In this document: positions 27,022 through 61,019 of the stretch, in pieces
Layout: the number at the start of each line of letters is the position of its first letter
Position numbering within the stretch: the first letter of the stretch is position 1
Made by a program: the position numbers and the translations under genes
Source of the DNA: Klebsiella pneumoniae
GTDB lineage: Bacteria; Pseudomonadota; Gammaproteobacteria; Pseudomonadales; UBA5518
Direction: 5' to 3'
Length of the DNA stretch: 64,000 nucleotides
Assembly: GCA_945862145.1 (NCBI GenBank)
Contig: CAMAXE010000013.1
Coordinates: 1-64,000, forward strand
Notes under the pieces: model-generated
Seen by the model: the letters and a program-made list of their open reading frames with translations, nothing else
Databases searched by the model: none
Told to the model about the DNA's origin: nothing

Positions 27022-27106
27022 GTACTTTTGCGGGTGGCGCGGCACGACCGGCCCCGACACGATGTCCAGAGTCACTACCCACTGCCGGCATCACCATCAC
27101 CCACTG

Positions 27107-32805: not shown

Positions 32806-32858
32806 ATCACATCCGCACCTCGCCCGCAGGCGGCGTGCCCGAACCGGAGGACTACCAC

Positions 32859-33816: not shown

Positions 33817-34917
33817 TCAACGCGAGTCACCGGCATCGCCGCGGCCAGTCGTGAACAGTCCGGCGACCGCGAGCGCCGCGGCCATCGTGTCGTCGCGCCT
33901 CAGCCCCGATGGGGCCTGTGGCTGCGCGTCGCCAAGCCATGCGGCCCGCCCGTGAAGCACCAGTTCGCGCATTATTCCCAACGCGTCACGGCGCATGCGC
34001 CGCGGCCCCAGGCTCATGGCGAGTCGATGAACGAGCGCATCGAAGCGGTAGTTGTAGCCACGCCGCCACCACTGTGGGCCGTCCTCAAGACTGAAGAGAT
34101 AAACCGGCCGTCCGGTGAACTCCGCCTCGGCCACCATGGACACACTGTCGGCGGTGACCACAAACTGCTCGGCGAGCGCCAGATACCCGAGGTAGGGATT
34201 GTCTGCGGCAGAGCGGCCCCAGCGATGCACGTATTGCGGCACGTCAATGGCCGCGAGAAAGCTCTCGAGCACACCGGCCGGGGTGCGTGCGCTGTCCGTG
34301 ACCAGCACCGAACCGCCACGCGAGCGGGCAAGACCGTTCACCATCTCACCGAGACGCCGCGCCTTGGCGGGTGTGAACACGGAGGCGCCGCTGTTGCCGC
34401 CAAGCAGCACGGCCGTGCGCGGCGCGGGCAGTGGCGCCAAAGCAGATGCCCAGCGCGTGCGGGCAGCAGCGAGCGAGGCTTCGCTCAGCCGGTGCAGGGG
34501 CAGGCTGTTCATCAGCACGTTGGGAAAGTCACCGAGGGGATACTGCGGGGTCGCCACCACCAGGTCGAAGCAACCCGGATGGACCCAAGGCCGTCCGAGA
34601 TGGACGATTCGCGCATGTCCCCCGGAGCATCGCTGGATCCAGCGTGCCACCGCCTCGTTACGCCGCCCGGAGCTAAGCACCAGATCTGGCCAGGGCGCCA
34701 CCAGCGGGCTGGAGCGAGCGCGGTCGATGCCGGCGAGCGTGACCCCAAACAACCTACTGGTGAGCAGCTCCCAGGGGCGGTAGAAAATCCGCTTTTCCTC
34801 GCAGGGCCAGCCAAGTCGCTCGGCGAGCGCAAGAACCTGCGTGTTGTCACCGGCCTTGTGGCCGAGCAGGAGCCACACCCGGGTGGCGGGGGCGCGCTGG
34901 AAAGGGTCTTCGCGCAC
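33817..34917 (-). CDS. ELM1-family protein, copy 2 (GT-B-like)
   Basis: A protein of about 366 residues of the Elm1 family, diverged from copy 1: LLLGHKAGDNTQV near 19, APWPDLVLSSGRRN, ARIVHLGRPWVHPGCFDLVV, and NPYLGYLALAEQFVVTADSVSM. The GTG at 34917, with GAGGAG 11 bases upstream, is preferred; an ATG at 34962 has no ribosome site and would leave only 14 bases to the divergent lptF start. Convergent with the glycosyltransferase gene. Its exact role is unknown, perhaps sugar transfer to a lipid. Confidence 0.82.
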   Translation of the reverse strand: MREDPFQRAPATRVWLLLGHKAGDNTQVLALAERLGWPCEEKRIFYRPWELLTSRLFGVTLAGIDRARSSPLVAPWPDLVLSSGRRNEAVARWIQRCSGGHARIVHLGRPWVHPGCFDLVVATPQYPLGDFPNVLMNSLPLHRLSEASLAAARTRWASALAPLPAPRTAVLLGGNSGASVFTPAKARRLGEMVNGLARSRGGSVLVTDSARTPAGVLESFLAAIDVPQYVHRWGRSAADNPYLGYLALAEQFVVTADSVSMVAEAEFTGRPVYLFSLEDGPQWWRRGYNYRFDALVHRLAMSLGPRRMRRDALGIMRELVLHGRAAWLGDAQPQAPSGLRRDDTMAAALAVAGLFTTGRGDAGDSR

Positions 34918-34976
34918 GGTGGCTCGGGCTCCTCGCGCGATGGCGGCTCGTCGATACTGCATTACAATACCAGCCC

Positions 34977-36050
34977 ATGCTTATAGAGCGTTACGTCACG
35001 GCGGAAATCGCCCGTCCCTTTGCCGCAGGGCTGGGCATACTCACCATCGTGTTCATCGCCTTCACCGCAGCGGTCAAGCTCGCGGATGCAGCCTCCGGCG
35101 CAATCCCGCCCTCTGCCGTGATGGAATTGATCATCCTCAGCACCCTGATTGCCCAGGAAGTCCTGCTGCCCACCACGCTGTATCTGGCCATCCTCTTTGC
35201 CCTCGGCCGCATGCACCGCGACTCGGAGATGGCCGCACTCGCGGCCGCCGGCATAGGCGAGCGACGGGTCCTGCGCGCGGTACTGGTGATCGGTGCCGGC
35301 GCCGCACTGCTGGTGGGTCTGTTGTCGGTGCAGGTACGCCCCTGGGCCTATGCGCGAAGCTATGCCCTGGAGCAGCAGGCCATGAGTCATTTCGACCTTG
35401 CCAACATCCGGCCCGGCAGCTTCGTCGAGCTCGGCAGCGGCGGCTATGTGCTGCAGGCCCAGGAGGTCGACACCGCCGCTTCCGAGCTCAGATCGGTCTT
35501 CGTGCAGGTGGATCGCGGCCGGCACTCGCAACTGATCGCTGCCGCCCGGGCTCACGTGCATGATCTCGATGCAGAAGGATCCCGCGCCGTGGAATTCCTC
35601 GACGGCTACAGCTACCGGCTGGACAACGAGGGCAATCACGACGTGAGCATGCGCTTCCGGTCATTCCTGATCCGCTTCCCGCCGGAGGAGCGGATGCAGA
35701 AATTCCGCCGCAAGGCGGTCGCTACCAGCACGCTCGGAAAGTCAGCGGACATCAAGGACATTGCCGAGTACCAGTGGCGTACCACCACGCCGCTCGCGAC
35801 CCTGCTGCTCGCGGTGCTCGCCGTGCCCTTGGCACGCTCCGGACCGCGGCAGTCACGCACGGGAGTTTTTGCGGTCGCCCTGCTTGCCTACCTGCTTATT
35901 TTCTCCACGAGCGGGGTAGTACGCAGCTGGATCGAAAACGGCAATATGCCGGCCTTCCCGGGGCTGGCCGTGGCCTACCTGCCCGCCCTGCTGCTGGGAG
36001 CATGGCTGCTGCGCTCACCGCGGCTGCGACCGAGCGGGTGGCGCAGGTGA
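34977..36050 (+). CDS. lptF: LptF-type permease (YjgP/YjgQ family)
   Basis: A 357-residue inner-membrane permease. Three transmembrane helices at the N-terminus, with ALGRMHRDSEMAALAAAGIGE near 76-96 (the family hallmark coupling segment), a periplasmic jelly-roll domain about 130-260, and three C-terminal helices (LATLLLAVLAVPLARS onward). LptF with LptG and LptB pulls LPS from the inner membrane to the periplasmic bridge. No clear ribosome site; TACAAT ends 8 bases before the ATG. Unlike most gammaproteobacteria it is not next to pepA. It may be the only lptF or a paralogue dedicated to the local lipid. Confidence 0.87.
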   Translation: MLIERYVTAEIARPFAAGLGILTIVFIAFTAAVKLADAASGAIPPSAVMELIILSTLIAQEVLLPTTLYLAILFALGRMHRDSEMAALAAAGIGERRVLRAVLVIGAGAALLVGLLSVQVRPWAYARSYALEQQAMSHFDLANIRPGSFVELGSGGYVLQAQEVDTAASELRSVFVQVDRGRHSQLIAAARAHVHDLDAEGSRAVEFLDGYSYRLDNEGNHDVSMRFRSFLIRFPPEERMQKFRRKAVATSTLGKSADIKDIAEYQWRTTTPLATLLLAVLAVPLARSGPRQSRTGVFAVALLAYLLIFSTSGVVRSWIENGNMPAFPGLAVAYLPALLLGAWLLRSPRLRPSGWRR

Positions 36051-37123
36051 TTCTCACCCGCCACATCGGACGCGAACTCGCGCGCGGCTGGCTGGTGGTC
36101 TTCACCATCCTCGCAGCCATGTTCGCGCTGCTGCAGCTGGTCGAGGAAACCGACAACCTGAGCCTGCGTTACCGCTTCATCAACGCAGCGTCCTACGTCG
36201 CGCTCACCACGCCGCAGCGGGTGCTGGAACTCTCACCGGTGATCGCCGCGCTTGGGACCCTGCTCGCCTTCGCCACGCTGAGCCGCAACAGCGAGCTAGT
36301 CGTCATGCGCGCGGCAGGGCTCTCGATGCGCCGCTTGTTGCTCATGGCGGGCGGACCCACGCTAGCACTGGTGCTCGGGCTATCGCTCGCCAGCGAGTTC
36401 CTCGTGGCGACCATGCATCACTTAGCCGAGACCGAGCGCACGGTACTGCGCAGCGGCAATCTTGACCTGCTGGCCGGCAAGGGGCTGTGGTCGCGCACCG
36501 GGTACCGGTTCCTGAACGTGCGGGAACTGCCCGCGGGCCAGGCGCCAGCGGGCATTTCACTCTACGAGTTCGCGGCCGACGGCCGCTTGCAGCGTGCCAT
36601 CGAGGCCGAGCGCGCCGAGCTGATGCCAGACCGTCGCTGGCGACTCGTCAACGCCCGCATCAAGGACTGGAGCGGCGATGTGCTAACGCGCCAGACCGTC
36701 GCCTCGCTCGATCTCGGCCCCTTCTGGTCCGAGACCGAACTGCCCGCGCTGGGTCAGTCGCTGGCCGCGATGTCGCCTTCCTCCCTGTATCGCTACGCCG
36801 AGCACCTGCGGTTCACCGGGCAGGACGACAACGAAATGCGCATGGCATTCTGGGAACGAGCCACGCTGCCGCTGTCGGCAGCGGCGATGGTGCTGCTCTG
36901 CGCGGTAATAGGAATCGGTTTCGGGTCGACGCGCAGCAGTGCCTTCGGCTGGCGAGTGCTGACCGGCGCGGTGATCGGCGTGGGTTTTTATCTGTTGAGC
37001 CAGATTTTCCACACGGCCGGACGGCTGTTGGGTCTGCAGCAAGCCGCCGTCGTGCTGCTGCCCATCGGGCTCGTGGTGGCACTTGCCCTGCTGATCGCCG
37101 CACGCACGCGCGGCCCACGCTGA
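36047..37123 (+). CDS. lptG: LptG-type permease (YjgP/YjgQ family)
   Basis: A 358-residue partner of LptF. The GTG at 36047 overlaps the lptF stop (GTGA) and gives the usual N-terminus ILTRHIGRELARGWLVVF; an ATG at 36002 would add an Ala-rich stretch without homology. Three N-terminal helices, the coupling motif ATLSRNSELVVMRAAGLSMRRLL near 77-99, a periplasmic jelly-roll, and three C-terminal helices. LptFG form the transmembrane core of the lipopolysaccharide exporter. The pair is followed 19 bases later by an ABC exporter. Confidence 0.88.
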   Translation: MILTRHIGRELARGWLVVFTILAAMFALLQLVEETDNLSLRYRFINAASYVALTTPQRVLELSPVIAALGTLLAFATLSRNSELVVMRAAGLSMRRLLLMAGGPTLALVLGLSLASEFLVATMHHLAETERTVLRSGNLDLLAGKGLWSRTGYRFLNVRELPAGQAPAGISLYEFAADGRLQRAIEAERAELMPDRRWRLVNARIKDWSGDVLTRQTVASLDLGPFWSETELPALGQSLAAMSPSSLYRYAEHLRFTGQDDNEMRMAFWERATLPLSAAAMVLLCAVIGIGFGSTRSSAFGWRVLTGAVIGVGFYLLSQIFHTAGRLLGLQQAAVVLLPIGLVVALALLIAARTRGPR

Positions 37124-37142: not shown

Positions 37143-38855
37143 ATGAAGCTGATGTCGAGTTTCTACCGCCGCTATCCCCTGCGCACCCTGCTCACGCTGC
37201 TTGCCATGTCGGTGGCAGGCCTCGCCGAGGGAGTAGGTTTGTCGGCGCTGCTACCGCTACTGAACATCGCAATCGAATCCGAGTCGAATGCCACTTCACC
37301 CCTGCCCGCGGTGTCCGGTAACGCCTTCGAGCACACGGTACGCAGTGCGCTGGCGTGGGCGGGCATAGAGCCGGAACTGAACAACTTGCTGGTGCTGATC
37401 GTTGCGGCTCTCACCGTGAAAAGCCTCCTGCTGCTGGCAGCGCAGGTGCAGGTGGGCTACAGCGCAGCGCGGCTGGCCACGGATCTCCGGCTGGAGTTGC
37501 TGCGCGCGGTGCTGCTAAGCCGCTGGGAGTACTTCCTCAACCAGCCGATCGGCAAACTGACCAACTCGCTCGCCACCGAGGCCGCGCGCGCCGCCGAGGC
37601 TTTCCAGAACGGTGCCACTGCCCTCACGTTCCTGTTCCAGGCGGTGGTGTATGGCGCCGTGGCACTTGCTGTCTCGTGGCGCGCCACGCTGGTGGGAATA
37701 GTGGCCGGGGCAATCATCATCGGCTTCTCGCACTCGCTGGTGCGCGTGACCAAGAAAGCGGGCAAGAAGCAAACCAGCGTGCTGCTGTCACTGATGTCGA
37801 CCATGACCGACACGCTGGCATCAGTGAAGCCGCTGAAAGGCATGGGGCGCGAGCATCTGGCCGGATCGGTGCTCTCCATGGAGACCGCGCGCCTCAACCA
37901 GGCCCTTGAGCGGCAGGTGCTGAGCGGCGCCTCTCTCGACTCGATGCAGCAGATTCTCTTTGCATTCATCATCGCCGGCGGCATGTATCTGGCGCTGGTG
38001 CGCAACGGACTGCCGCTGGCCACGGTGATGGTGCTGGTGGTGGTGATCGGGCAGATGGTGGCCTTGCTCGGCAAAGTGCAGAAGCAGTACCAGAAGGCCT
38101 CGATCGGCGAGAGCGCTTATTGGTCCATGCGCAAGACCATCACCGAAGCGCAGCAGGAGGAGGAAGAGCTGCATGCCGGCGAGCCGCCATCGCTCGGGAG
38201 CGGATTACGCCTCGAGGGTCTGGGTTTCCACTACGGGGAACGCAAGGTGCTGGAGGGCCTGGATCTCGAGATTCCGGCCGGCCAACTGGTGACGCTGGTG
38301 GGGCCATCGGGCAGCGGCAAGACAACCGTGGTCGACCTGGTGATAGGGCTGCTGCGCCCCGACACCGGACGCATCATGGTGGGCGGTCTGGCGCTCGAGT
38401 CACTCGATATCCGCCAGTGGCGCCGGGCCATCGGTTATGTGCCGCAGGACACCCTGCTGCTGCACGAGAGCATTGCCCACAACGTGAGCCTCGGCGATCC
38501 GCAACTCGGGGAGCCCGCAATCGAGGCGGCACTGCGAGCTGCCGGCGCATGGGGCTTCGTGGAGGCGCTGCCCGAAGGCATGCACGCAAGCGTGGGCGAG
38601 CGTGGCGGCAAGCTCTCGGGCGGGCAGCGCCAGCGCGTCGTGATCGCGCGCGCACTGGTGCGCAAACCGCAGCTGCTGATTCTCGATGAGGCAACCAGCG
38701 CACTCGATGCCGACAGCGCCGATGCGGTACGCCAGACACTGCAGCAACTGCGAGGCTCGCTCACGATCCTGACCATCACGCACCAGGAGCTGCTGGTCGA
38801 TATCGCCGATCGCGTCTACCGGCTGGAAGGCGGCAAGGCAAGGCTTCAGGCTTGA
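37143..38855 (+). CDS. MsbA-like type I ABC exporter
   Basis: A 570-residue half transporter: a six-helix membrane domain (about 1-320), then an ATPase domain with Walker A GPSGSGKT near 387-394, signature LSGGQRQR near 491-498 and Walker B LLILDEATSALD near 511-522. The family includes MsbA, the lipid A flippase, and many lipid or peptide exporters. It follows lptG on the same strand, so a lipid flippase acting before LptFG is a good hypothesis. A coiled-coil-like EEEEL stretch joins the domains. True msbA in gammaproteobacteria usually sits beside lpxK, which is absent here. Confidence 0.9.
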   Translation: MKLMSSFYRRYPLRTLLTLLAMSVAGLAEGVGLSALLPLLNIAIESESNATSPLPAVSGNAFEHTVRSALAWAGIEPELNNLLVLIVAALTVKSLLLLAAQVQVGYSAARLATDLRLELLRAVLLSRWEYFLNQPIGKLTNSLATEAARAAEAFQNGATALTFLFQAVVYGAVALAVSWRATLVGIVAGAIIIGFSHSLVRVTKKAGKKQTSVLLSLMSTMTDTLASVKPLKGMGREHLAGSVLSMETARLNQALERQVLSGASLDSMQQILFAFIIAGGMYLALVRNGLPLATVMVLVVVIGQMVALLGKVQKQYQKASIGESAYWSMRKTITEAQQEEEELHAGEPPSLGSGLRLEGLGFHYGERKVLEGLDLEIPAGQLVTLVGPSGSGKTTVVDLVIGLLRPDTGRIMVGGLALESLDIRQWRRAIGYVPQDTLLLHESIAHNVSLGDPQLGEPAIEAALRAAGAWGFVEALPEGMHASVGERGGKLSGGQRQRVVIARALVRKPQLLILDEATSALDADSADAVRQTLQQLRGSLTILTITHQELLVDIADRVYRLEGGKARLQA

Positions 38856-39913
38856 TTGAACAGCGCCCGCACGCGAGCCACCGCACGCTCCACATCCGGC
38901 GACGGCGCCACAACCTGTCCGGAATGAATCTGGCCCAGCCAGACTGCGCGCCCCTCGGCGATCATCCTGTCGTGCACCAACGCGATATCACGACCGAGAC
39001 GCTGCGGCCCGAAGCGCATCAAGAGACGGTACCCGACGGTATCGGGCGTGTGATCGTGCGGCACGGGCCCAGCCCCGGGCGCATGATCACGCTCGAGGTC
39101 GAACAGGTAGAGCGGCTTGCCGGTGGCACTCGCCTCGGAGAGCATGGAGATGCTGTCGAAGGTGGTCACGATCCGGTCAGCCATTCCCAGATAGGCGAAG
39201 TACGGGTTTTCGGGGTCGTCGGCGCGCCAGCGGTAAATCTCGTGGGGCACGCTGGTCTCGCGATCGAGGACTTCGCTGACGCTGGCCGGTGTGCGGGAGC
39301 TGGTGCTGATCATCAGGCTGCCACCGAGAGATCGCGCCAGCTCGCTCGCCTGGCGTGCAAGACGCCGCGCCGCGTTCGCGCCGAAGGCATAGGGCCCGCT
39401 CGAGCCTCCTGCCATCACCGCGATCCGCGGTGCCGGCAAGCGCTCCAGGCGCTCGCGATGAAGCGCGAGGTCTGCGGCCACCCGGCCGGGCGTGACCCGG
39501 TGCATGGTGAGCGCGTTCTGCAGAACCGTGGGACTGTCTGCGAGCCGATACTGCGGCGTCGTCACAACCAGATCGAAGCTCGCAGGATCGGCCCACGGGC
39601 GCCCCACATGAACGACGCGGGCGCTCCCACCGGAAGCCTTGCGCACCCAGCGGCACACGGGTTCATTGCGCATCCCGGCGCCGATCACCAAATCTGGCCA
39701 CGGGGGTACGAGTGTGGCCGCGCACTCGGGCGTCAGACCGAAAAATCCGGTACCGCGAACAAGCTCGAAGGGGCGGCCGATTTCACGGTACTCGATGGGC
39801 TTCAATTCGAAGGGCCAGCCGAGCGCCTCGGCGAGAGCCAGCATCTGGCTGTGCTCACCGGCCCGGTAGGCACCGATCACCCAGACACGCCGTTCAGACG
39901 CTCCCTCAGACAC
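38846..39913 (-). CDS. ELM1-family protein, copy 3 (GT-B-like)
   Basis: A 355-residue Elm1-family protein. The GTG at 39913 follows a GGTGG site about 10 bases upstream; an upstream frame to 40018 has no start signal. Motifs: VIGAYRAGEHSQM near 12 (the usual D-N is E-H here), PPWPDLVIGAGMRNEP, ARVVHVGRPWADPASFDLVV and NPYFAYLGMADRIVTTFDSISM. It is closer to copy 2 than to copy 1. Its 3' end overlaps the exporter's 3' end by 10 bases. Divergent from the acyl carrier protein gene, 127 bases apart, which may hold a shared control region. Confidence 0.83.
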   Translation of the reverse strand: MSEGASERRVWVIGAYRAGEHSQMLALAEALGWPFELKPIEYREIGRPFELVRGTGFFGLTPECAATLVPPWPDLVIGAGMRNEPVCRWVRKASGGSARVVHVGRPWADPASFDLVVTTPQYRLADSPTVLQNALTMHRVTPGRVAADLALHRERLERLPAPRIAVMAGGSSGPYAFGANAARRLARQASELARSLGGSLMISTSSRTPASVSEVLDRETSVPHEIYRWRADDPENPYFAYLGMADRIVTTFDSISMLSEASATGKPLYLFDLERDHAPGAGPVPHDHTPDTVGYRLLMRFGPQRLGRDIALVHDRMIAEGRAVWLGQIHSGQVVAPSPDVERAVARVRALFNQA

Positions 39914-40040
39914 GCGTTGATTTCCACCAAAAATACACAAGGGCGCCGACAGCCCGATCGGGTCGCGGCGAGCCTCAGTATACTTCCGAGCTGCTCCGTA
40001 GCGGCGCAGCGGCCACAATCAACTGCCGGGAAAACGCACG

Positions 40041-40283
40041 ATGGCAAGCTATGACATCTGCCTCGCCCGAGTGCTCGAACTCCTCGCGCCGCTCGCCAAA
40101 CCGGGTGGCGTCGTTGCCGAGTCCAGCGATCTGGTTGGCGAACTGGGGCTATCTTCCATCGACGTGATGGAAATGATCGAGAGCATCGAAGACGAGTTCG
40201 ATATCTCCTTCCCCCTGAACAACCTCTCCACCATCCGTACCGCCGGCGAACTCGCCGCCGATATCGCGAGGCTATCGCAATGA
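40041..40283 (+). CDS. Acyl carrier protein, sphingolipid-type
   Basis: An 80-residue acyl carrier protein. The phosphopantetheine Ser is S39 in LGLSSIDVMEM (the DSL motif of FAS ACP is SSI here), with helix III (IRTAGELAADIARL) near 65-78. The ATGA overlap with the serine palmitoyltransferase gene shows translational coupling. In Caulobacter a dedicated ACP next to spt supplies the acyl donor for ceramide. It is not the fatty-acid synthesis AcpP, which has a different motif and usually sits with fabF. Confidence 0.85.
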   Translation: MASYDICLARVLELLAPLAKPGGVVAESSDLVGELGLSSIDVMEMIESIEDEFDISFPLNNLSTIRTAGELAADIARLSQ

Positions 40284-41467
40284 GCCTGCTCGACAAGTTC
40301 GATGCCATGACCGCCGTCCGCGCGGAGCTCACAGCGCGCGGCCTGCGCCCCTTTGGAGCGATCAACGAAAAAATCATCTCGCCCACCGAGGGAACCATCG
40401 CCGGCAAGCGGGTGATCCTGGCGGGAACTCACAATTATCTCGGACTCACCTTCGAACCCGAATGCATCGAGGCCGCGCAGCGCTGCGTCGCCGAGCAGGG
40501 CACCGGCACCTGTGGCTCGCGGATGGCAGCCGGCACCTACGCCGAACACGACGCGCTGGAGAGCGAGCTGGCGGCGTTCTTCGGTCGCCGCTACGGGATT
40601 GTCTTCTCCACCGGCTTCAGCGCCTGCATGGGCGTGCCAGCTACTCTCGCGGGCCCGGGCGACACGATCCTCATGGACTCCGACAGCCACGCCAGCATCT
40701 ACGATGGCGTCCGCCTGAGCGGTGCCGAGGTCGTGCGCTTCCGTCACAACGACGCCGCCAACCTCGAGAAGCGTCTCGAGCGTCTGGGCGACAAGGCCAA
40801 GGACACCTTGGTGGTAGTCGAAGGCATCTACAGCATGCTGGGCGACATGGCGCCGCTTGGCGCCATCGCCGAACTCAAACGCAAATACGGCTTCTGCCTG
40901 ATGGTAGACGAGGCGCACTCCATGGGCGTGCTCGGCGCACGCGGGCGCGGGCTTGCCGAGGCGGCGGGCGTCGAAGACGACGTCGATTTCATCGTCGGCA
41001 CCTTCAGCAAGAGCCTTGGCTCGATCGGGGGCTACTGCGTCAGCAACCTCGATCAGACCGACGCCATCCGTTTCTCGACCCGCTCCTACCTGTTCACCGC
41101 CTCGTCCACGCCAGCAACCATAGCCTCGGCGCGCGCGGCTTTGCGCGTATTGCAGGCACGCCCCGCGCTGCGCGAGACGCTCTGGCGCAACGCCAACATG
41201 CTCTACAACGGTCTGCGCGAACTCGGCTTCCGCGTCGGCCCCGACGCGAGCCCCGTGGTAGCGGCGATTTTCGAGGACCGCGAAACGGCTATCCGTTACT
41301 GGCAAGGACTGCTCGATCAGGGTGTGCTGGTGAATCTGGTGGTACCCCCGGGCTCGCCATCGACCTACAGCCTGCTCCGGGCGAGTGCGAGCGCCGCACA
41401 CACCGAGGAGCAGATTCGCCACATCCTCTCGGCCTACGCGAATCTCAGGCTCAGGGACGCGGCGTGA
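40280..41467 (+). CDS. spt: Serine palmitoyltransferase-type alpha-oxoamine synthase
   Basis: A 395-residue PLP enzyme of the AOS family (BioF, Kbl, HemA, SPT). The catalytic Lys is K244 in GTFSKSLGSIGGY; the PLP-contacting DEAHSMG is at 210-216, with HNYLGL near 51-56 and HASIYDG near 137-143. The family members are hard to separate by motif, but the overlapping acyl carrier protein upstream, which BioF and Kbl lack, and the nearby ceramide synthase and reductase support 3-oxosphinganine synthesis from serine and acyl-ACP. This is the first committed step of sphingolipid synthesis. A BioF function cannot be excluded from motif alone. Confidence 0.83.
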   Translation: MSLLDKFDAMTAVRAELTARGLRPFGAINEKIISPTEGTIAGKRVILAGTHNYLGLTFEPECIEAAQRCVAEQGTGTCGSRMAAGTYAEHDALESELAAFFGRRYGIVFSTGFSACMGVPATLAGPGDTILMDSDSHASIYDGVRLSGAEVVRFRHNDAANLEKRLERLGDKAKDTLVVVEGIYSMLGDMAPLGAIAELKRKYGFCLMVDEAHSMGVLGARGRGLAEAAGVEDDVDFIVGTFSKSLGSIGGYCVSNLDQTDAIRFSTRSYLFTASSTPATIASARAALRVLQARPALRETLWRNANMLYNGLRELGFRVGPDASPVVAAIFEDRETAIRYWQGLLDQGVLVNLVVPPGSPSTYSLLRASASAAHTEEQIRHILSAYANLRLRDAA

Positions 41468-42393
41468 GCGCCCATGCCGAGGCGGTATTCCGCTTCGCGC
41501 ACCTCTCCGACCCTCACTTGTCGGATCCTTCGGGGGCATCGCTCGGGCAGCTGGCGGGAAAGCGGATACTGGGTTATCTGTCGTGGCGGCGCCGCCGGCG
41601 TCACGAACACCGGCGTGAATTCCTCGACGCACTCGGTCGTGACCTGAAGACCCTCGCACCGGATCACACCGTCGTCACCGGTGATCTCACGCACATCTCG
41701 CTGCCGCAGGAATTCGTGCAAGCGCACGACTGGCTGCGGTCGTTGGGCTCGGGGGACGCCGTCACGGTGGTACCCGGCAATCACGATGCCTATGTACATA
41801 TCGCCTGGGAGAAATCCATCGGACTGTGGTCTGACTATCTGCGCGCAGACCGCGCGAGCGACGCGATGTTCCCGCTGCTCCGGGTGCGCGGCCCAGTGGC
41901 TTTCATAGGACTGAATTCGGCGCTCCCATCGGCACCCCTGTTTGCCACCGGAGGCATCGGGCAAGAACAGCTGCGGCGCCTCGAGACAATCCTCGACTCG
42001 CTGCGCGGATCAGGGCTGTTGCGCGTACTGATGCTGCATCACCCCCCGGTGCCGGGCGCCGAGGTGTGGCGAAAGCGCCTCGTGGACGCGCCGAAGCTCT
42101 GCGAGATCCTGGGCCGCACACCGGTGGACATGGTGCTGCATGGGCACCGCCATCGCCCGGTGCACACCCTGATTCGCATTCCCGGCAGCGGAATCCCCGT
42201 ATTCGGGATCCCCTCGGCGTCCGCCGCGGGGCTGCACTCGCCCCACGCCTCCGAGTACAACACCTATGCGATCACGCCCACGCCCGAGGGCTGGCGCGTC
42301 GAGGTGCAGGCGCGCACGTGGCAGGACCATTCGGCGGGCTATCGTTCCGAGAAGATCGCGGCGTTGCAGATCAACCGGTCCGACTCGCACTGA
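41464..42393 (+). CDS. Calcineurin-like metallophosphoesterase
   Basis: A 309-residue phosphoesterase that starts at a GTG overlapping the spt stop (GTGA). The five family blocks are present: FAHLSDPHL near 11-19, VTGDLTH near 72-78, VVPGNHDAY near 102-110, LHHPP near 190 and LHGHRHRP near 226-233. It is cytosolic by lack of a signal. Being translationally coupled to spt, it probably dephosphorylates or cleaves a phospho-lipid or nucleotide intermediate of the same pathway. Exact reaction unknown. Confidence 0.82.
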   Translation: MSAHAEAVFRFAHLSDPHLSDPSGASLGQLAGKRILGYLSWRRRRRHEHRREFLDALGRDLKTLAPDHTVVTGDLTHISLPQEFVQAHDWLRSLGSGDAVTVVPGNHDAYVHIAWEKSIGLWSDYLRADRASDAMFPLLRVRGPVAFIGLNSALPSAPLFATGGIGQEQLRRLETILDSLRGSGLLRVLMLHHPPVPGAEVWRKRLVDAPKLCEILGRTPVDMVLHGHRHRPVHTLIRIPGSGIPVFGIPSASAAGLHSPHASEYNTYAITPTPEGWRVEVQARTWQDHSAGYRSEKIAALQINRSDSH

Positions 42394-42400
42394 GGAGCCT

Positions 42401-43195
42401 TCAGTCGCGCTGCAGCAGGCGCGCCTCTACCAGCGCGTGATCCTCAGGCGAATCGACATCGACCGCGGCCTCGCCAAAGGGCATGCGCACAGCGGCCACC
42501 CTTAGCCCGGTGCGGCGCGAGAGCAGCGCCATGGCCATATCCAGATCGAGCCAACCCAGGCGATAGCGCAGCACGGCACTCCAGCCGAGCAGCTGCAGGA
42601 CACGCCACGGCGTCTTGCGGGCGCCTTCAACCTGCCTCCACAACCCTGCCATGGAACGTCCCTCTGCGGTGGGAAAAGCGAACAGGTTGCAGCCGCAGTA
42701 ATCGGCATCGCGAAAGCGCAGCAGCGTCTTGCGCATCGACGGGAAAATCTCCCGGACATTGGCGTATTCAGAAAGCCCAACCACCACATCGGCACCGCTC
42801 GCGAGCGCAGCACTGCAAAAGTGCTCGATGAATTCGGGCCGCAACAACGGATGATCCGCGGTGGTCAGAAGCACGGGCAGCGCAGCAGGAATCGCCGCGA
42901 GGGCCTCGCTTGCGCTGGTGCTCGGAGTAGGTCCGGCCGCACGCCAGGCGAGCCCTCCGCTGTCTATGCGGTCACGCAGGGCAGGCTCCGTGTCCACCGC
43001 CTCGCGGGCGGGCCCGCTCAAGAGCACCGAGGCCACGCAGTCGGTGGACTGCAGCGCCTCGAGCACCCGCATCAGCATCGGGCGCCCGGCGATCTCAAGC
43101 AAGGCCTTGCAGCCCCGGCCCGAGGCTATCACCAAGGGATCATCGGCGCGGCGGTCACCCGCCAGCACGATCGCGGCCCAGGAACGCGTGGTCAC
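42401..43195 (-). CDS. MobA-like nucleotidyltransferase
   Basis: A 264-residue NTP-transferase. The GTG at 43195 overlaps the stop of the preceding acyltransferase gene (GTGA). It opens AAIVLAGDRRADDPL with a loosely conserved nucleotide-binding loop, then CKALLEIAGRPMLMRVLEAL near 29-48 and LLTTADHPLLRPE near 103-115 with the metal-binding Asp. In Caulobacter, CpgD, a nucleotidyltransferase near the ceramide synthase gene, makes CDP-glycerate from CTP and 3-phosphoglycerate for ceramide diphosphoglycerate. The same position and partner here make that the leading, but inferred, function. Confidence 0.75.
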   Translation of the reverse strand: MTTRSWAAIVLAGDRRADDPLVIASGRGCKALLEIAGRPMLMRVLEALQSTDCVASVLLSGPAREAVDTEPALRDRIDSGGLAWRAAGPTPSTSASEALAAIPAALPVLLTTADHPLLRPEFIEHFCSAALASGADVVVGLSEYANVREIFPSMRKTLLRFRDADYCGCNLFAFPTAEGRSMAGLWRQVEGARKTPWRVLQLLGWSAVLRYRLGWLDLDMAMALLSRRTGLRVAAVRMPFGEAAVDVDSPEDHALVEARLLQRD

Positions 43196-44340
43196 TGCGG
43201 CAGCTCCATCTCGTAGAGCCGGTAGCGCTTGTAGACCTCGCCACCGATGGCCTCGATGATGCTGCGCATTCCCGAGTTGTCCTCCAGGATCCACGACATC
43301 TCGACCTCCGTGACGCCGCGTGCGCACATGCTCTTGCGCACGGCGTCGATCACCGCAAAGGCAAGTCCTGGTCCGAGCCGGGAGTTCTGAAACGACTGCC
43401 GCACGCCCATCAAGGGCACGCGGGCGCTGCGCGGATGACGGACCTTGAGGCCCCAAAGCAGCTTCAGCCAGCCGAAGGGCAGCAACCGCCCGCCAAGGTG
43501 CTGGGTGATCTCGTGGATATTGGGCATCGCGACGATGAAGGCCGCGGGCACGCCATCGACCTCGGCGATCTGCACGTAGTCGGGCGGGGCGAGCAGGGTC
43601 ACCAGCTTGCCGACGTCGGCAAACTCCTCCTCGGTGAAGGGCACGAACCCGTAGTTGCGCGACCAGGCGTCATTGAAAATATCCCGGATCAGCGCCAGGT
43701 CGCCGGCGCGGTTGCGGGTATCGAGCGAGCGGACTCTGACACTGCTGCCGCCTGCCTCGGCCAGGCGACGCATGACCCGGGGCGCCTCGAAATCCGGCGC
43801 GACCCGGTAGGCGAGCAGATCGCGCGCGGGGTGCAGGCCGGCATCCTGGAGCGCCCTGTCATACCGCGGGAGGGCATGGCCCATCATCACGCAGGGCGGA
43901 GCATCGAAGCCCTCGACCAGCAGACCGCATTCTTCGTTGACGGAGAGATTCAGCGGGCCGCGCAGGCACTGGGCACCGTGCGCGCGGAGCCATGCGGTGG
44001 CAGCAGCGAACAGGGCAGCGGTAACGCGGGCATCATCAATGGCCTCGTAGAGGCCGAAGGCGCCGCTACGATCGGCATGGAAATCCTGCTGAAGGCGGTC
44101 CCACTGCGCGGTGATACGACCCACCGGCACTCCGGCCGCGTCGTAGGCCACCCAGGCCTGGACGCTCGCGTGCAGCAGGAAGGGGTTGGAGCCCCAGATC
44201 CGCTCACGCAACTCGAACTCCAGCGGGGGCACCCAGTTAGGATCCGCGGCATACAACCGGGCAGGCAGCCGCAGGAAGTCCTTGCGGCGTGCCACGGAAT
44301 CCGCGGGGCGCACCGAGATCGAGCTGTCAGTCGGGTTCAA
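43192..44340 (-). CDS. bcerS: GNAT-fold acyltransferase, bacterial ceramide synthase-like
   Basis: A protein of about 382 residues with conserved start ISVRPADSVARRKDFLRLP and RLYAADPNWVPPL, a double GNAT-type fold and late FNDAWSRNYGFVPFTEEEF, LGPGLAFAVIDAV and EMSWILEDNSGMRSIIEAIGG. This whole-length pattern is that of the bacterial ceramide synthase bCerS, which acylates the amine of 3-oxosphinganine. The start is uncertain: TTG 44340 has GGAG about 10 bases upstream and gives the family length; GTG 44412 and TTG 44463 extend it without homology. Coupled to the nucleotidyltransferase gene. Confidence 0.78.
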   Translation of the reverse strand: MNPTDSSISVRPADSVARRKDFLRLPARLYAADPNWVPPLEFELRERIWGSNPFLLHASVQAWVAYDAAGVPVGRITAQWDRLQQDFHADRSGAFGLYEAIDDARVTAALFAAATAWLRAHGAQCLRGPLNLSVNEECGLLVEGFDAPPCVMMGHALPRYDRALQDAGLHPARDLLAYRVAPDFEAPRVMRRLAEAGGSSVRVRSLDTRNRAGDLALIRDIFNDAWSRNYGFVPFTEEEFADVGKLVTLLAPPDYVQIAEVDGVPAAFIVAMPNIHEITQHLGGRLLPFGWLKLLWGLKVRHPRSARVPLMGVRQSFQNSRLGPGLAFAVIDAVRKSMCARGVTEVEMSWILEDNSGMRSIIEAIGGEVYKRYRLYEMELPQ

Positions 44341-44698
44341 TATCGGCGTGCTCCGAAACGTGCTGCGTGGCTCGTTACCTGAGTATACAGGCCGGTTTCG
44401 CGGCCACGCCACAGTGCTGTCAGCCCCGCAGTTACGCTGAAAAAACCTTTTCAAATCCAACAATTAGCGCAACTTAAAACGCCTCACCCGCGAGCTTATC
44501 GGGCCAAATAGTACCAGTGGATCAAGGTTGATTTGGAGCGGCTGCGAACGAAAAATACAGCTGACAAATACGACAGGGCTCAAAGACTGCCGTGGGACAA
44601 GAAGCAGTGGTGCAGGCCTTCTAAGGGGAGGGCGTGTGGGTTAGCACCAACAAGCTCAGCCACGACATGGGCAACCAACATAAGGGAAGCACACGGTT
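44341..44698. promoter_or_regulatory. Divergent control region between bcerS-like and acyl-ligase genes
   Basis: About 358 bases between divergently transcribed genes of the ceramide set, AT-richer than its surroundings around 44440-44580. It must hold promoters for both directions. I could not assign -35/-10 pairs with confidence, and no terminator or coding frame is supported. The left 120 bases could be part of the acyltransferase gene if an upstream start is used. Confidence 0.4.
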
Positions 44699-46471
44699 TT
44701 GCGCACCGAATTGACACCCACACGTCACGAACTGCCATTCCGCCCTGCGGATTTTCGCACCCTTACCGAGGCGCTGGATTACGCAGCGCGCGGGGAGACT
44801 GGCGCAAATTTCTACACCGGACGTGGCGAATTCTCATCTAGCCTTCCCTTCTCCGACCTTCGCACAGAGGCGCTGGGCCTCGCCAGGCGGCTGCTGGGGC
44901 TCGGCATGCACAAGGGCGACCGGGTCGCCATGGTGGCAGAGACCCATCCGGATTTTCTCCGCGTGTTCTTCGGCTGTCAGTACGCAGGACTCGTCCCGGT
45001 GGCTCTGCCGGCTACGATAAATCTGGGTGGTCACCAGAGCTTCGTGGCGCAGTTGCGTGGCCTGATCAAAAACAGCGGCGCGTCGGTGGCCATTGCCTCG
45101 GAAGGCTTCCTGCCTTTCGTGCTCGAGGCCGTCGAAGACATGGCGCTCCTCATGGTGGGTGAGCCCGCGGAGTTCGACCTGTTGCCCGAGGCGAGCGGCG
45201 AACTGCCGCTGATCGAGCCGGGCGATGTGTCGTATCTGCAGTACACCTCGGGCAGCACACGCTTCCCGCGCGGCGTGATCATCGAGCACCGCGCGGTGAT
45301 GAACAACCTGCACGGGATCATCACGGCAGGCGTAAAAATCCGTGAGGGCGATCGTTGTTTCTCATGGCTGCCGTTCTACCACGACATGGGCCTTGTTGGT
45401 CTGGTGCTGGTACCGGTGGCCGCGCAGATGTCCGTCGACTACATGGACACCCGCGATTTCGCCATGCGCCCTCGGCAATGGCTCAGTCTGATGTCACAGA
45501 CCAAGGCAACTATCTCGTTCAGCCCCTCCTTCGGCTATGAACTCTGCGCCCGTCGCCTGCGCGAAGGCGAGGCCGCTCACTACGATCTCAGCAACTGGCG
45601 TGTTGCGGGGATCGGCGCGGAGATGATTCGCTGGGAAACCCTCGAGCGCTTCGCCAAGGCCCTGGCGCCAGCGGGATTCGACCCGCGTGCATTCCTCGCC
45701 TGCTACGGGATGGCGGAGTGCTCGCTGGCCGTGAGCTTCACGCCGCTCTTCGGCGGCTTCCGCACCGACGTGGTGGATCTCGATCACCTTGCTGACCATG
45801 GCGAGGCGCTGCCGCCGGCAGATGGCGCCACGGGACGGGCGCGTGCCTTCGTCGATTGCGGCGAACCACTTCCCGGTTACGAGATGGAGATCCGCGGCGA
45901 CGACGGCACGATCCTTCCGGATCGCAGCACCGGGACGATCTTTGTGCGCGGCCCCAGTGTCATGAGGGGCTATTTCAACGCGCCGGCTGAAACCGCCGCA
46001 GCGCTGAGCACCGATGGCTGGCTGAACACCGGAGACATCGGCTATCTGGTCGATGGCAGCCTGGTGATCACCGGGCGCCAGAAGGATCTCATCATCATCA
46101 ACGGCCGCAACATCTGGCCGCAGGACCTCGAGTATCTCGCCGAGCACCAGCCAGAGGCCCGCGTCGGCGATGCACTGGCCTTCTCGGTGCCGGGACCGGA
46201 GTCACGCGAAGTCTGCGTACTGGTGGTGCAGTGCCGGGAAACCAACGCCCAGCGCCGCGGCGCGCTGATCGAGCGGCTTACGCGCCTGGTGAGACTCGAA
46301 ATGGGCATCGACAGCTACGTCGAACTGGTCCCGCCGCACACACTGCCCCGTACCTCCTCCGGCAAGCTGTCCCGCTCCAAGGCGCGCCAGACCTTTATGG
46401 AGACCCACGATCTGGTTGACGTGGCCGCAGTGGCAGAAGGCGCGCCGCCGAAACATCAAGTCTCTGCCTGA
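44699..46471 (+). CDS. Fatty acyl-AMP ligase / acyl-ACP synthetase
   Basis: A 590-residue ANL-superfamily adenylate-forming enzyme. It starts at TTG 44699 with AAGGGA upstream. Motifs: the P-loop YTSGSTRFPRGVIIEHRAVM near 180-200, LPFYHDMGLVGLVL near 221-234, ACYGMAECSLAVSF near 337, and TGDIGYLVDGSLVITGRQKDLI near 443-464. The form LPxYHDMGL and YGMAE is typical of fatty acyl-AMP ligases, which hand the acyl group to an ACP instead of CoA. In Caulobacter an acyl-ACP synthetase loads the ceramide ACP. That is the likely role here. Confidence 0.85.
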   Translation: MRTELTPTRHELPFRPADFRTLTEALDYAARGETGANFYTGRGEFSSSLPFSDLRTEALGLARRLLGLGMHKGDRVAMVAETHPDFLRVFFGCQYAGLVPVALPATINLGGHQSFVAQLRGLIKNSGASVAIASEGFLPFVLEAVEDMALLMVGEPAEFDLLPEASGELPLIEPGDVSYLQYTSGSTRFPRGVIIEHRAVMNNLHGIITAGVKIREGDRCFSWLPFYHDMGLVGLVLVPVAAQMSVDYMDTRDFAMRPRQWLSLMSQTKATISFSPSFGYELCARRLREGEAAHYDLSNWRVAGIGAEMIRWETLERFAKALAPAGFDPRAFLACYGMAECSLAVSFTPLFGGFRTDVVDLDHLADHGEALPPADGATGRARAFVDCGEPLPGYEMEIRGDDGTILPDRSTGTIFVRGPSVMRGYFNAPAETAAALSTDGWLNTGDIGYLVDGSLVITGRQKDLIIINGRNIWPQDLEYLAEHQPEARVGDALAFSVPGPESREVCVLVVQCRETNAQRRGALIERLTRLVRLEMGIDSYVELVPPHTLPRTSSGKLSRSKARQTFMETHDLVDVAAVAEGAPPKHQVSA

Positions 46472-46501
46472 TTCGCTGTCTCGTTTGCGCGACAGCCCGG
46501 C

Positions 46502-47425
46502 ATGCTCATAGCGATCACAGGCGCGACTGGCTTCATCGGTCAGCGTCTGGCTAAAGCGCTTATCAAGGCAGGCCATGAACTCAGGGCGCTCACGCGCCAG
46601 CCCTCGGCGGCACTGCCTCCCGAGATCGAACAGATATCCGGTGATCTTGCAGATACCGACGCCCTCGGGCATCTGGTGCGAGGGGTAGACGCGGTCATGC
46701 ATCTCGCAGGTGCAGTGCGTGGAGCGAAGGCAAATGACTTTGACCGCCCCAATGTCCAGGGCACCCGTAACCTGCTGCTGCAGATGCAGCACGAAGCCCC
46801 AGCATGCCCCTTGCTGTTCATCTCATCACTGGCGGCCCGTGAGCCCGCCCTGTCGCACTATGCCGCGAGCAAACGCCAGGCCGAGCATCTGCTGGTCGAG
46901 CTCGCCAACGAGCGCCCCTGGCTGATCCTGCGACCCCCTGCGGTGTACGGACCGGGCGATCGCGAGATGCTCCCGGTATTCCGGTTCATGGCACGGACCG
47001 GCATCGCTCCCTGCGCGGGGAAGCGCAGTGACCGCCTCTCGCTGATCTTTGTCGATGATCTGGTCGCGGTGGCCATGGCGTGGCTGCAGCGCGCCACCAC
47101 CTTACGCAGCGGCTGCATGAGTCTCCACGACGGGCAAGCCGGTGGCTATGACTGGAATGACCTCGCCCGTCTGACTGGCATCGCCTGCGGTCGGACGGTA
47201 CATCCATGGGAAGTGCCCCGCCCCCTGCTTGATCTTGCTGCGAGCGTGAATCCTCTGCTCTGCGCCCTGCTTGGCAGCGCGCCAATGCTGTCACCCGCCA
47301 AGCTTCGCGAGCTGCGTCATCCGGACTGGGTCTGCGACAACCGCGAGATCACGCAATTGCTCGGTTGGGAGCCGCGCATTTCGCTCACAGAAGGCCTGGC
47401 GGCGACAGGCGGCTGGCAGGATTAA
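46502..47425 (+). CDS. cerR: NAD-dependent epimerase family, ceramide reductase-like
   Basis: A 307-residue extended SDR. TGATGFIG is at 6-13, HLAGAVRG near 67 and YAASK (Tyr/Lys) near 120-124 with Ser in FISSLAA near 107, and ILRPPAVYGPGDREM near 140. Begins 30 bases after the acyl ligase. In Caulobacter an epimerase-like protein encoded beside spt, CerR, reduces the 3-oxo group of oxidised ceramide. This gene is the fifth of the ceramide set, so the same role is likely. NADPH or NADH use cannot be decided. Confidence 0.8.
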   Translation: MLIAITGATGFIGQRLAKALIKAGHELRALTRQPSAALPPEIEQISGDLADTDALGHLVRGVDAVMHLAGAVRGAKANDFDRPNVQGTRNLLLQMQHEAPACPLLFISSLAAREPALSHYAASKRQAEHLLVELANERPWLILRPPAVYGPGDREMLPVFRFMARTGIAPCAGKRSDRLSLIFVDDLVAVAMAWLQRATTLRSGCMSLHDGQAGGYDWNDLARLTGIACGRTVHPWEVPRPLLDLAASVNPLLCALLGSAPMLSPAKLRELRHPDWVCDNREITQLLGWEPRISLTEGLAATGGWQD

Positions 47426-47515
47426 CACTGTGCCTGCAGCACCTCACTGCGGCTGGACGCGGCAGCCAAGCCGTCGATAAGCTTGCCCCCCAATGGCGCC
47501 GTAAGGACAACTGAC

Positions 47516-48757
47516 ATGGCTGGCTGCCCTCTCGCCAACCTGATCGACCCCGACACTTACGCCGAGGGCATGCCCTACGACGAACTGCGTCGCTACCGCG
47601 AACAGGGAGCCGTCGTCTGGCATGACGACCCGCGAACCGGCGTGCCCTACTGGGCCGTGGTCGGGCAGCAGGAACTCGACTACGTCTCCAAACACCCAGC
47701 TCTATTCTCCTCGGCTGCGCGATCCCCCTTCCCCGCCGAATACCCGCAAGACCAGGTAGAGACCATCCACCGCAAGACGATCATCGGGATGGACCCCCCG
47801 CTGCACCAGAAGGTGCGACGGATCATGCGCGCGGCGTTCACTCCAAGCGCCGTAGACGCGCACGAGGCGATGTTCCGCCAGCATGCGCGGCGGATCGTCG
47901 ATGCCGTGCTCCCGCGGGGCGAGTGCGAGTTCGTCGAGGAAGTGGCGGCGGAACTTCCACTGCTGGCAATCCTCGAGCTGCTCGGCGTGGATCCCGCCGA
48001 CCGCAAGGATTTCTTCAACTGGACCAACACCATGATTTTTGCCGATGACCCCGACATGGCGGTCTCGGAACTGGATGGCCAGATCGCCGCGGCCAACGTG
48101 ATCGGCTATGCGATGAAGCTTGCCGAAGCACACCGTGTATCGCCGGCAAAAAACGTCCTCGGTGCCCTGCTCGATGGCCGCATCGACGGCGAGCCCCTCA
48201 GCACCGAGGAGTTCGTCTGGATGTTCGTGCTGACACTGGTGGGCGGCAACGAGAGCACCCGCACGGTAATCGCCCACGGCATGCGCCTGCTGATGGAACA
48301 TCCCGAGCAGTTGCAGTACCTCGTGGAAAATCCCGATCGCATCGCTGCGGCCACCGAGGAGATGCTGCGCTACAACACGGCCTTCATCGCCATGCGGCGC
48401 ACCGCCATGCAGGATGTGGAGCTGGGCGGGCAGTCGATCCGCGCGGGCGACAAGGTGCTGTTGCACTACCACGCGATAAACCATGACGAGCGGGTGTTCG
48501 GCGACGATGCGATGCGCTTTGATGTGCGTCGCCCCGAGCGCATGCCGGACCTCTACAACCAGCTCCGCTCCTTCGGTATCGGGCAGCACTTCTGTATCGG
48601 CTCGCACCTGGCGCGGCTGGAGTTGCGGGTGATGTTCGAGGAAATCATCCCCCGTCTGCGCAACCCCGGGTTGCTGGCGCCGCCGCGATTCGTCCGCTCC
48701 TTCTTCGTGAACGGCATCAAAGAGATGAAAGTCCGCTTTGACTCTGCCCCCATCTGA
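47516..48757 (+). CDS. Cytochrome P450
   Basis: A 413-residue soluble P450. The start at 47516 has AAGGA 8 bases upstream and follows an upstream start at 47483 that lacks one. The heme-binding loop FGIGQHFCIGSHLAR has its thiolate Cys near 360; the EEMLR K-helix is near 289. The I-helix oxygen-activation motif reads LVGGNESTRTV near 240 in place of the common AGxDTT, a form seen in actinobacterial-type steroid and fatty-acid P450s. No ferredoxin gene is adjacent. It may hydroxylate a lipid of the cluster or act on an imported steroid or fatty acid. Confidence 0.9.
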   Translation: MAGCPLANLIDPDTYAEGMPYDELRRYREQGAVVWHDDPRTGVPYWAVVGQQELDYVSKHPALFSSAARSPFPAEYPQDQVETIHRKTIIGMDPPLHQKVRRIMRAAFTPSAVDAHEAMFRQHARRIVDAVLPRGECEFVEEVAAELPLLAILELLGVDPADRKDFFNWTNTMIFADDPDMAVSELDGQIAAANVIGYAMKLAEAHRVSPAKNVLGALLDGRIDGEPLSTEEFVWMFVLTLVGGNESTRTVIAHGMRLLMEHPEQLQYLVENPDRIAAATEEMLRYNTAFIAMRRTAMQDVELGGQSIRAGDKVLLHYHAINHDERVFGDDAMRFDVRRPERMPDLYNQLRSFGIGQHFCIGSHLARLELRVMFEEIIPRLRNPGLLAPPRFVRSFFVNGIKEMKVRFDSAPI

Positions 48758-59980: not shown

Positions 59981-59984
59981 GAGG

Positions 59985-60935: not shown

Positions 60936-61019
60936 CGCGAAACGGCAGCCTTGGCGCGCGGAACGGGCAGTGAGCTTAGCAATCCGACCAGCAAAATTCC
61001 ACGCACTGCAGAGCCCGGC

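Follow-up and report, generated by a model that had tools for sequence, protein, structure and literature searches.

A sphingolipid gene cluster with its own LptF–LptG pair in gammaproteobacteria that lack lipid A genes

What makes lipid A essential to most diderms, and by what route a lineage can lose it, is an open question. It is raised by a stretch of 64,000 nucleotides, here called the window (positions 1 to 64,000 of contig CAMAXE010000013.1, assembly GCA_945862145.1, entered as Klebsiella pneumoniae and placed by GTDB in the Pseudomonadales, UBA5518), which carries a ceramide-synthesis gene cluster and ends inside a locus that elsewhere holds lipid A genes. What, then, covers the surface of this bacterium? 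Its outer surface is probably formed by a sphingolipid instead of lipopolysaccharide (LPS), the molecule of nearly all sampled relatives; this follows from a full set of genes for sphingolipid synthesis and export together with a clean loss of genes required for LPS. Judging from gene content, we consider it quite likely that this is a gammaproteobacterial lineage without LPS in which the cluster makes, modifies and exports a ceramide, phosphorylated and probably also glycosylated and sulfated, that replaces LPS by way of the Lpt bridge. The chemistry of the lipid and its carriage by that bridge are the parts that we infer.

Lipid A genes are missing from a conserved locus

In the genome that contains the window (G000; 4,375,170 bases in 51 contigs, 100% complete), genome searches returned no match to LpxC and none to LpxB. 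We compared six genomes of the genus (G000 to G005, 51 to 730 contigs each) with 21 other genomes of the order, using searches for LpxC, LpxB and WaaA whose built-in controls, E. coli and Caulobacter, both matched. LpxC was present in a single genus genome (G003, 93% complete) versus 20 of 21 others (p = 0.0004), and LpxB in that same genus genome versus all 21, so that the two genes are absent together from the same five members of the genus. The sole other member of the order without an LpxC match (G026, 89% complete) has LpxB. WaaA (KdtA) was found in none of the six genus genomes versus four of four comparison genomes. Ceramide synthase has the opposite distribution, being present in 6/6 genus genomes and 0/21 of the others.

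The conserved locus elsewhere reads bamA-skp-lpxD-fabZ-lpxA-lpxB-rnhB-dnaE; in both E. coli and G006, a genome outside the genus sample, skp and fabZ flank lpxD, and fabZ and rnhB flank the genes lpxA and lpxB. The window ends with tilS, accA and dnaE, and rnhB, fabZ, skp (by PF03938), bamA and rseP continue beyond its edge (locus L144), giving the order rseP-bamA-skp-fabZ-rnhB-dnaE-accA-tilS in G000. Missing from this locus are lpxD, lpxA and lpxB (LpxA, LpxD and LpxK were not searched genome-wide): the skp and fabZ frames are 129 bases apart, and fabZ adjoins rnhB. The gene left standing, fabZ, is required in ordinary fatty acid synthesis. Both deletion points recur in G001, G002, G004, G005, Candidatus (Ca.) Litorirhabdus singularis (L155) and Nitrosospira multiformis Nl7 (L159), with the block whole in G004, partial with both points covered in G001, G002 and G005, and matched up to rnhB in Nl7. 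The full lpx locus set is kept in G003 and G006. This is probably a lineage without LPS, in which the lipid A pathway has been lost.

The LptF and LptG genes of the window genome lie in the ceramide cluster

The outer membrane assembly machinery was kept when the lipid A genes went: BamA, Skp, LptD, LptA and LptB are all present, LptA and LptB beside rpoN, and LptD in six of six genus genomes and 18 of the 21 others. G000 has exactly two LptF/LptG matches in its genome, and both lie at 34977–37123, inside the ceramide cluster.

A complete ceramide gene set

A preliminary description of the window, made from its letters, had proposed that five genes match the five functions needed for ceramide in Caulobacter. 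All five are present (Table 1), with no internal stops and with the examined motifs intact, and the genes for the acyl carrier protein (ACP) and serine palmitoyltransferase (SPT) do overlap as ATGA. The description had allowed that the SPT might be BioF. The bioF model scores it at 314.3 bits, under its cut-off of 426.45, and the Kbl and ALA-synthase models are likewise sub-threshold; its best solved relatives are serine palmitoyltransferases (397 bits, versus 202 for the cysteate fatty acyltransferase 28eh). In a tree that sets SPTs from named clusters beside BioF and Kbl of E. coli and the two closest of seven own-genome paralogues that were fetched, the window protein falls inside the SPT group, which rules out BioF or Kbl identity. 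The genome's own BioF (L004, 49% identical to E. coli BioF) and Kbl (L003, 66% identical to E. coli Kbl) are separate genes, and with BioF at another locus a biotin gene does not explain the SPT.

The candidate ceramide synthase is encoded on the minus strand, a point that the preliminary description does not mention, and has no match in Pfam, NCBIfam or the sequences of solved structures. It aligns over its full length with the same-position genes of Pseudomonas, Diaphorobacter, Roseomonas and Klebsiella plasmid clusters at 43–50% identity, and a structural model built from 33 sequences (mean pLDDT 85.1) has tandem GNATs as its best matches (7q3a_A, Z 24.8, root-mean-square deviation 3.3 over 304 residues). 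N-myristoyltransferases, which transfer a long acyl chain onto an amine, are also among the matches of this model, at Z of about 16–17. The assignment to the ceramide-synthase family, already made in the preliminary description, is borne out by alignments, tree and predicted tandem GNAT fold, which exclude an unrelated acetyltransferase; in the trees of both ceramide synthase and SPT, short sequences were excluded by coverage. The acyl-AMP ligase is 46–72% identical to its homologues in ceramide loci outside the genus, and its family and motifs point to an AasR-type acyl-ACP synthetase.

We compared the cluster gene by gene with 85 named ceramide-synthase loci, 3 of them from the genus; many end at contig ends, so the counts are lower bounds. 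A homologue of the ceramide reductase occurs in 44 of the 85, and homologues of all five genes occur together in 31, a co-location that places their grouping beyond chance. Judged by their families, the five make up a complete Caulobacter-type ceramide gene set, which alone is a pathway of known kind; the likeness runs via named clusters of other species and not via the Caulobacter proteins themselves. The sphingolipid reading of the preliminary description thus withstood the sequence comparisons that could have overturned it and proved incomplete rather than wrong: its five genes stand, while the surrounding LptFG, ABC transporter, kinase, glycosyltransferase-like and sulfotransferase genes had been left out. 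Its statement that sphingolipid production is uncommon in gammaproteobacteria was too strong, as this set of genes is no rarity: an alignment scan of species genomes confirmed at least 581 stretches that encode a ceramide-synthase relative, from which 80 loci were kept. The five genes are reported to be conserved in alpha-, beta- and gammaproteobacteria (PMC11324152), and the pathway itself was already known in the gammaproteobacteria Azotobacter and Pseudomonas luteola.

An apparent intermediate within the genus

In G003, the genome that retains lpx genes, a single contig carries both lpxD-fabZ-lpxA-lpxB and the ceramide cluster, and a second contig carries ftsZ-lpxC-secA. A tree built from BamA, FabZ, RnhB and DnaE, proteins that are partial for some of the genomes, groups the genus as ((G000,G005),(G004,G001)) and (G002,G003), with forks at 99.9–100/100, and the ceramide synthase tree agrees with it. 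G003, with lpx genes, is therefore sister to G002, without them, and lies inside the genus (100/100). Because G003 keeps the locus at its ancestral place, the tree implies separate losses in G002 and in the other four genomes. The lpx genes were thus lost at least twice within the genus, barring their return to the same position in G003.

The sphingolipid clusters of these genomes differ as well. The cluster stretch of G003 (C20:12001–68536) shows no match to the ABC exporter, the sulfotransferase, the methyltransferase, two of the three ELM1 proteins, the protein at the head of the cluster (27062), the possible GT8 protein or the cytochrome P450. The ABC exporter, the possible GT8 protein and the second ELM1 protein are shared by all five members without lpx genes. 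The sulfotransferase was seen in four of them; in the remaining one, G005, the contig stops short of its position. G003, which has both gene sets on a single contig, is an apparent intermediate.

The same combination in other lineages

Outside the genus set, LpxC and LpxB were searched in the genomes of 50 of the 80 kept ceramide-synthase loci, gammaproteobacteria being chosen first. LpxC was found in 38 of the 50 and LpxB in 36, and 11 had neither: Ca. L. singularis, a Halieaceae metagenome-assembled genome (MAG), SZUA-307, and eight genomes that belong to Nitrosomonas, Nitrosospira or Nitrosovibrio or to their group by the ceramide synthase tree. LptF and LptG were searched in 46 of the 50, all but G072–G075. 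Exactly one LptF–LptG pair was present in 11 of the 11 genomes without LpxC and LpxB versus 7 of the 31 with both (p = 7e-6, with no correction for kinship); the other 24 of those 31 have four or more LptF/LptG matches, and the 7 have two. This test leaves aside the genomes with only one of LpxC and LpxB (G030, G035, G041 and G061, with 2, 2, 5 and 4 LptF/LptG matches). In 10 of the 11 LPS-minus genomes LptG lies within 11 kb of cerS, and in the eleventh the contig ends soon after cerS. The number of LptFG genes appears to track the loss of LPS, though not perfectly.

Parts of this combination have been noted before. That Nitrosomonas europaea and Nitrosospira multiformis have almost no lpx genes was described in 2010 and ascribed to genome reduction (PMC3087551); a search of that paper for 'sphing' gave no hit. 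Ceramide genes in N. eutropha have been noted in a paper whose consulted sections do not mention lpx loss there (PMC11324152). Ca. L. singularis IMCC14734 is in pure culture, and the main text of the paper describing it gave no hit for sphingolipid, lipopolysaccharide or lipid A (PMC10100682). One contig filed under an Acidobacteriota MAG (L079) carries a ceramide synthase nested among Nitrosomonas sequences and is probably misbinned.

Putative decoration and export genes of the wider cluster

The cluster is larger than five genes and spans 27062 to 48757 (Table 1). Its lipid kinase has the GGDG motif and lacks CxxxCxxC, the pattern reported for CpgB (PMC10331486), and has homologues in 32 of the 85 named loci. 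Homologues of the ABC exporter occur in 21 of the 85, with 26–58% identity outside the genus, and those of the ELM1 proteins are labelled 'ELM1/GtrOC1 family putative glycosyltransferase' in RefSeq. The protein that is possibly GT8-like, judged by eye from its motifs (DxD, H-x7-PW), is 81–97% identical within the genus and 69% identical in Ca. Litorirhabdus. In some other clusters such a part appears fused ahead of an ELM1-like part in proteins of 780–814 residues. Its predicted structure has a mean pLDDT of 42, and a profile search of its family against the sequences of solved structures gave two weak matches only, to chains with design-like names.

Table 1. Features of the window, with coordinates, strand and supporting evidence
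Feature	Coordinates	Strand	Evidence and occurrence
Conserved protein at the cluster head, no Pfam match	27062..27985	+	59% identical in G004, 26% in Ca. Litorirhabdus
DAGK-type lipid kinase, probable ceramide kinase (CpgB-like)	27982..28944	+	PF00781, 52.7 bits
Conserved kinase neighbour, no Pfam match	28947..29873	+	in 40/85 named loci
ELM1-family putative glycosyltransferase 1	29828..30922	+	PF06258, 166.5 bits
Methyltransferase	31017..31757	+	PF08241, 37.7 bits
Sulfotransferase	31858..32805	+	PF00685, 85.6 bits; 47% identical gene in Ca. Litorirhabdus cluster
Possible GT8-like glycosyltransferase	32835..33806	+	no Pfam match; DxD at residue 101, H-x7-PW at 205
ELM1-family putative glycosyltransferase 2	33817..34962	-	PF06258, 211.8 bits
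LptF-type permease	34977..36050	+	PF03739, 195.4 bits; homologues in 56/85 named loci
LptG-type permease	36047..37123	+	PF03739, 187 bits; start codon inferred; homologues in 55/85 named loci
MsbA-related ABC exporter, probable sphingolipid flippase	37143..38855	+	PF00005/PF00664
ELM1-family putative glycosyltransferase 3	38846..40018	-	PF06258, 201.8 bits
Dedicated acyl carrier protein	40041..40283	+	PF00550, 42.7 bits (cut-off 20.8); Ser in LSSID
Serine palmitoyltransferase	40280..41467	+	NF047599, 583.9 bits (cut-off 500)
Metallophosphoesterase	41416..42393 (start approximate)	+	PF00149, 52.7 bits; in 26/85 named loci
MobA-like nucleotidyltransferase	42401..43195	-	PF12804, 58.6 bits; in 73/85 named loci
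Bacterial ceramide synthase (tandem GNAT)	43192..44463	-	alignments; predicted fold
Fatty acyl-AMP ligase / acyl-ACP synthetase (AasR-type)	44699..46471	+	NF006624, 817.6 bits (cut-off 600); motifs
Ceramide reductase (short-chain dehydrogenase/reductase, CerR)	46502..47425	+	PF01370, 89.3 bits; GATGFIG and YAASK motifs
Cytochrome P450, possible ceramide hydroxylase	47483..48757	+	PF00067, 81.9 bits; haem motif intact
tilS-accA-dnaE, window end of the former lpx locus	58655..64000	-	E. coli orthologues mapped

The P450 gene stands directly 3' of cerR, and genes 90–97% identical to it lie near cerR in G001, G004 and G005; G003 has no match near its cerR. The enzyme might be a ceramide hydroxylase. 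Ceramide hydroxylation in Caulobacter has been ascribed to a DesA-type protein (PMC11324152). A P450 gene also occurs in the cluster of a Diaphorobacter plasmid (L040). Ca. L. singularis has most of the cluster in closely similar order, with one ELM1 protein, the methyltransferase and the P450 unmatched in its cluster.

Just upstream of the kinase end of the cluster, at 24538–27021, lies a gene for a protein with PPDK_N and PEP-utilizer domains. An Rfam scan of the window detected three tRNAs, a small signal recognition particle RNA and nothing else. With a tRNA-Asn at 22979–23054, a tRNA-linked integrative island was considered and rejected, as no stretch of the tRNA-Asn longer than 12 bases recurs downstream in the window. 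Ceramide-type clusters do occur on predicted conjugative plasmids of Pseudomonas, Diaphorobacter (IncP) and Klebsiella michiganensis (IncFIB) (L039, L040 and L042), from which we conclude that the ceramide pathway is probably mobile between species.

A proposed route for the sphingolipid, and alternative explanations

The steps by which the proposed sphingolipid would be made and exported can be sketched from the protein families. The acyl-AMP ligase would load a fatty acid onto the dedicated ACP, SPT would condense the ACP-bound fatty acid with serine, the tandem-GNAT synthase would N-acylate the product and CerR would reduce it. The CpgB-like kinase, the ELM1 and GT8-like putative glycosyltransferases, the methyltransferase and the sulfotransferase would then add an anionic head group. 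The MsbA-like ABC protein would flip the finished sphingolipid, LptB2FG would extract it, and LptA and LptD would carry it to the outer leaflet.

The gap in the lpx locus could instead be an artefact of assembly or binning; the ceramide pathway would then be an ordinary one that accompanies normal LPS, as it does in Caulobacter and Azotobacter. The genus assemblies are drafts, three of them (G002, G003 and G004) are MAGs filed as Pseudomonadales or Gammaproteobacteria, and ceramide synthase does coexist with LpxC in 38 of 50 genomes. However, in five genus genomes and two named strains the gap lies within contiguous sequence, with bamA, fabZ and rnhB in place on the contig, and LpxC and LpxB vanish jointly from the same five genomes. 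The contiguity answers the binning objection and largely refutes an artefact as the source of the missing genes, an account to which we give hardly any credence. LPS might also have been lost through general genome reduction or relaxed selection, with the sphingolipid cluster unrelated to the loss and the outer leaflet made of phospholipid or polysaccharide. This is how Opiyo et al. explained the near lack of lpx genes in Nitrosomonas europaea (genome reduction; PMC3087551), but G000, at 4.4 Mb, is not reduced. Furthermore, LptA, LptB, LptD and LptFG are kept, the only LptFG being inside the sphingolipid cluster, and all 21 sampled genomes of the order that lack ceramide synthase have at least one of LpxC and LpxB, which leaves this explanation unlikely. 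Finally, the SPT-like gene may make another alpha-oxoamine product and the cluster a different lipid, such as a sulfonolipid or an aminolipid. A sulfotransferase and a P450 do lie in the cluster, and the superfamily of the SPT also includes a cysteate fatty acyltransferase of solved structure. Yet the SPT scores above an equivalog cut-off and is nearer to solved SPTs than to the cysteate enzyme, and each of its four partner enzymes in ceramide synthesis has a candidate here, making a different lipid very improbable.

Several observations weigh against replacement of LPS by an exported sphingolipid. The Lpt bridge does not appear to be the textbook one, as lptC is absent from the position that it normally holds. 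In G006 the gene is there, flanked by kdsC and lptA (PF06835, 119.5 bits), whereas in G003, G004, G005 and Ca. Litorirhabdus there is no space for it between these two genes (it was not searched elsewhere); in G000 the contig ends within kdsC, right beside lptA. The Kdo pathway genes kdsD and kdsC are retained in G003, G004, G005 and Ca. Litorirhabdus, which would not be expected after a loss of LPS and slightly lowers our confidence in replacement and slightly raises it in genome reduction; as a speculation, Kdo could decorate another polymer or the sphingolipid itself. A second LptFG pair is present in G001 and G004 although both are without LpxC and LpxB. The pair in G004 (L151, C116, 8713–14910), which is not beside a pepA match, is accompanied by an LptA-like gene, a CDP-alcohol phosphatidyltransferase, a nucleotidyltransferase and a flippase-like Polysacc_synt_3 protein, and possibly forms a second lipid export route. 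G003 keeps LpxC, LpxD, LpxA and LpxB, yet has no WaaA match, only the LptFG pair of its cluster and no lptC at the usual place. The head group may also differ from that of Caulobacter CPG2, since the 30 window proteins that were scanned include no CDP-OH_P_transf match that would indicate a CDP-alcohol phosphatidyltransferase of the CC_1159 type (the rest of the genome was not searched). Among the wider set, G061 has LpxB, no LpxC and four LptF/LptG matches, and the 11 LPS-minus genomes are not independent: the ceramide synthase tree puts eight of them in its Nitrosomonadaceae group. That so few lineages are independent is a weak link.

Beyond the genus, we lean, less firmly, towards a broader proposal, namely that clusters with their own LptF and LptG act as an LPS-replacement cassette, in whose presence lipid A genes become expendable and are repeatedly deleted and the Lpt bridge is given over to an anionic sphingolipid. 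Such deletion would have happened at least twice in this genus and apparently also in the Halieaceae, an unplaced gammaproteobacterium and the ammonia-oxidising Nitrosomonadaceae. The sphingolipid would here probably be sulfated and glycosylated, and LptC is not at its usual place in the genus and Ca. Litorirhabdus.

Relation to known systems and implications

The closest described counterpart is the CC_1152–CC_1168 region of Caulobacter crescentus, which, like the window, brings together a ceramide kinase, LptF2 and LptG2, a potential flippase, a nucleotidyltransferase and a phosphoesterase (PMC11324152). LptF2, LptG2 and LptC2 have been proposed there as sphingolipid carriers. Caulobacter has LpxC, as our search control shows, and second copies of LptC, LptF and LptG (PMC11324152), whereas the window genome has lost its lipid A genes and has a sole LptFG pair, and lptC is missing from its usual locus in the genus. 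The window cluster is further extended by genes for ELM1-type proteins, a sulfotransferase, a methyltransferase and a P450. Of the 17 genes in the Caulobacter cluster, at least 13 have contiguous orthologues in Azotobacter vinelandii and Pseudomonas luteola (PMC11324152); among our genomes, Azotobacter beijerinckii (L058/G038) and Pseudomonas asuensis (L072/G048) have both LpxC and LpxB, with five and four LptF/LptG matches, respectively.

The window genus differs from the sphingomonads, which are Alphaproteobacteria, in being gammaproteobacterial and in having a member with lpx genes beside members without them, a record of the change. Sphingomonads are a natural lipid A-less group (PMC10964400) that makes sphingolipids (PMC10964400; PMC11087976). 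Both are diderms that lack lipid A and are equipped for sphingolipid synthesis, in our case as judged from genes. The Nitrosomonas/Nitrosospira group resembles the window genome in that its eight LPS-minus genomes lack LpxC and LpxB and have one LptFG pair, close to cerS; the genus shows the same combination in another lineage, and with an intermediate state. Open-licence literature, searched with incomplete coverage, showed no link of ceramide clusters to LPS loss in Gammaproteobacteria or ammonia oxidisers, and so supports novelty only weakly. What is new is that several features come together: the lipid A genes are excised, the Lpt bridge is kept, the sole LptFG pair is in the sphingolipid cluster and one genus contains an apparent intermediate.

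The genus thereby offers a natural series, from one member with lpx and ceramide genes to five without lpx genes and with a larger sphingolipid cluster. It also ties the lack of lpx genes in ammonia oxidisers, which has long been noted, to the cluster that holds their only LptFG pair. The named strains Ca. L. singularis IMCC14734 and Nitrosospira multiformis make this reading testable, and it predicts that the Lpt bridge would be able to carry a lipid other than LPS.

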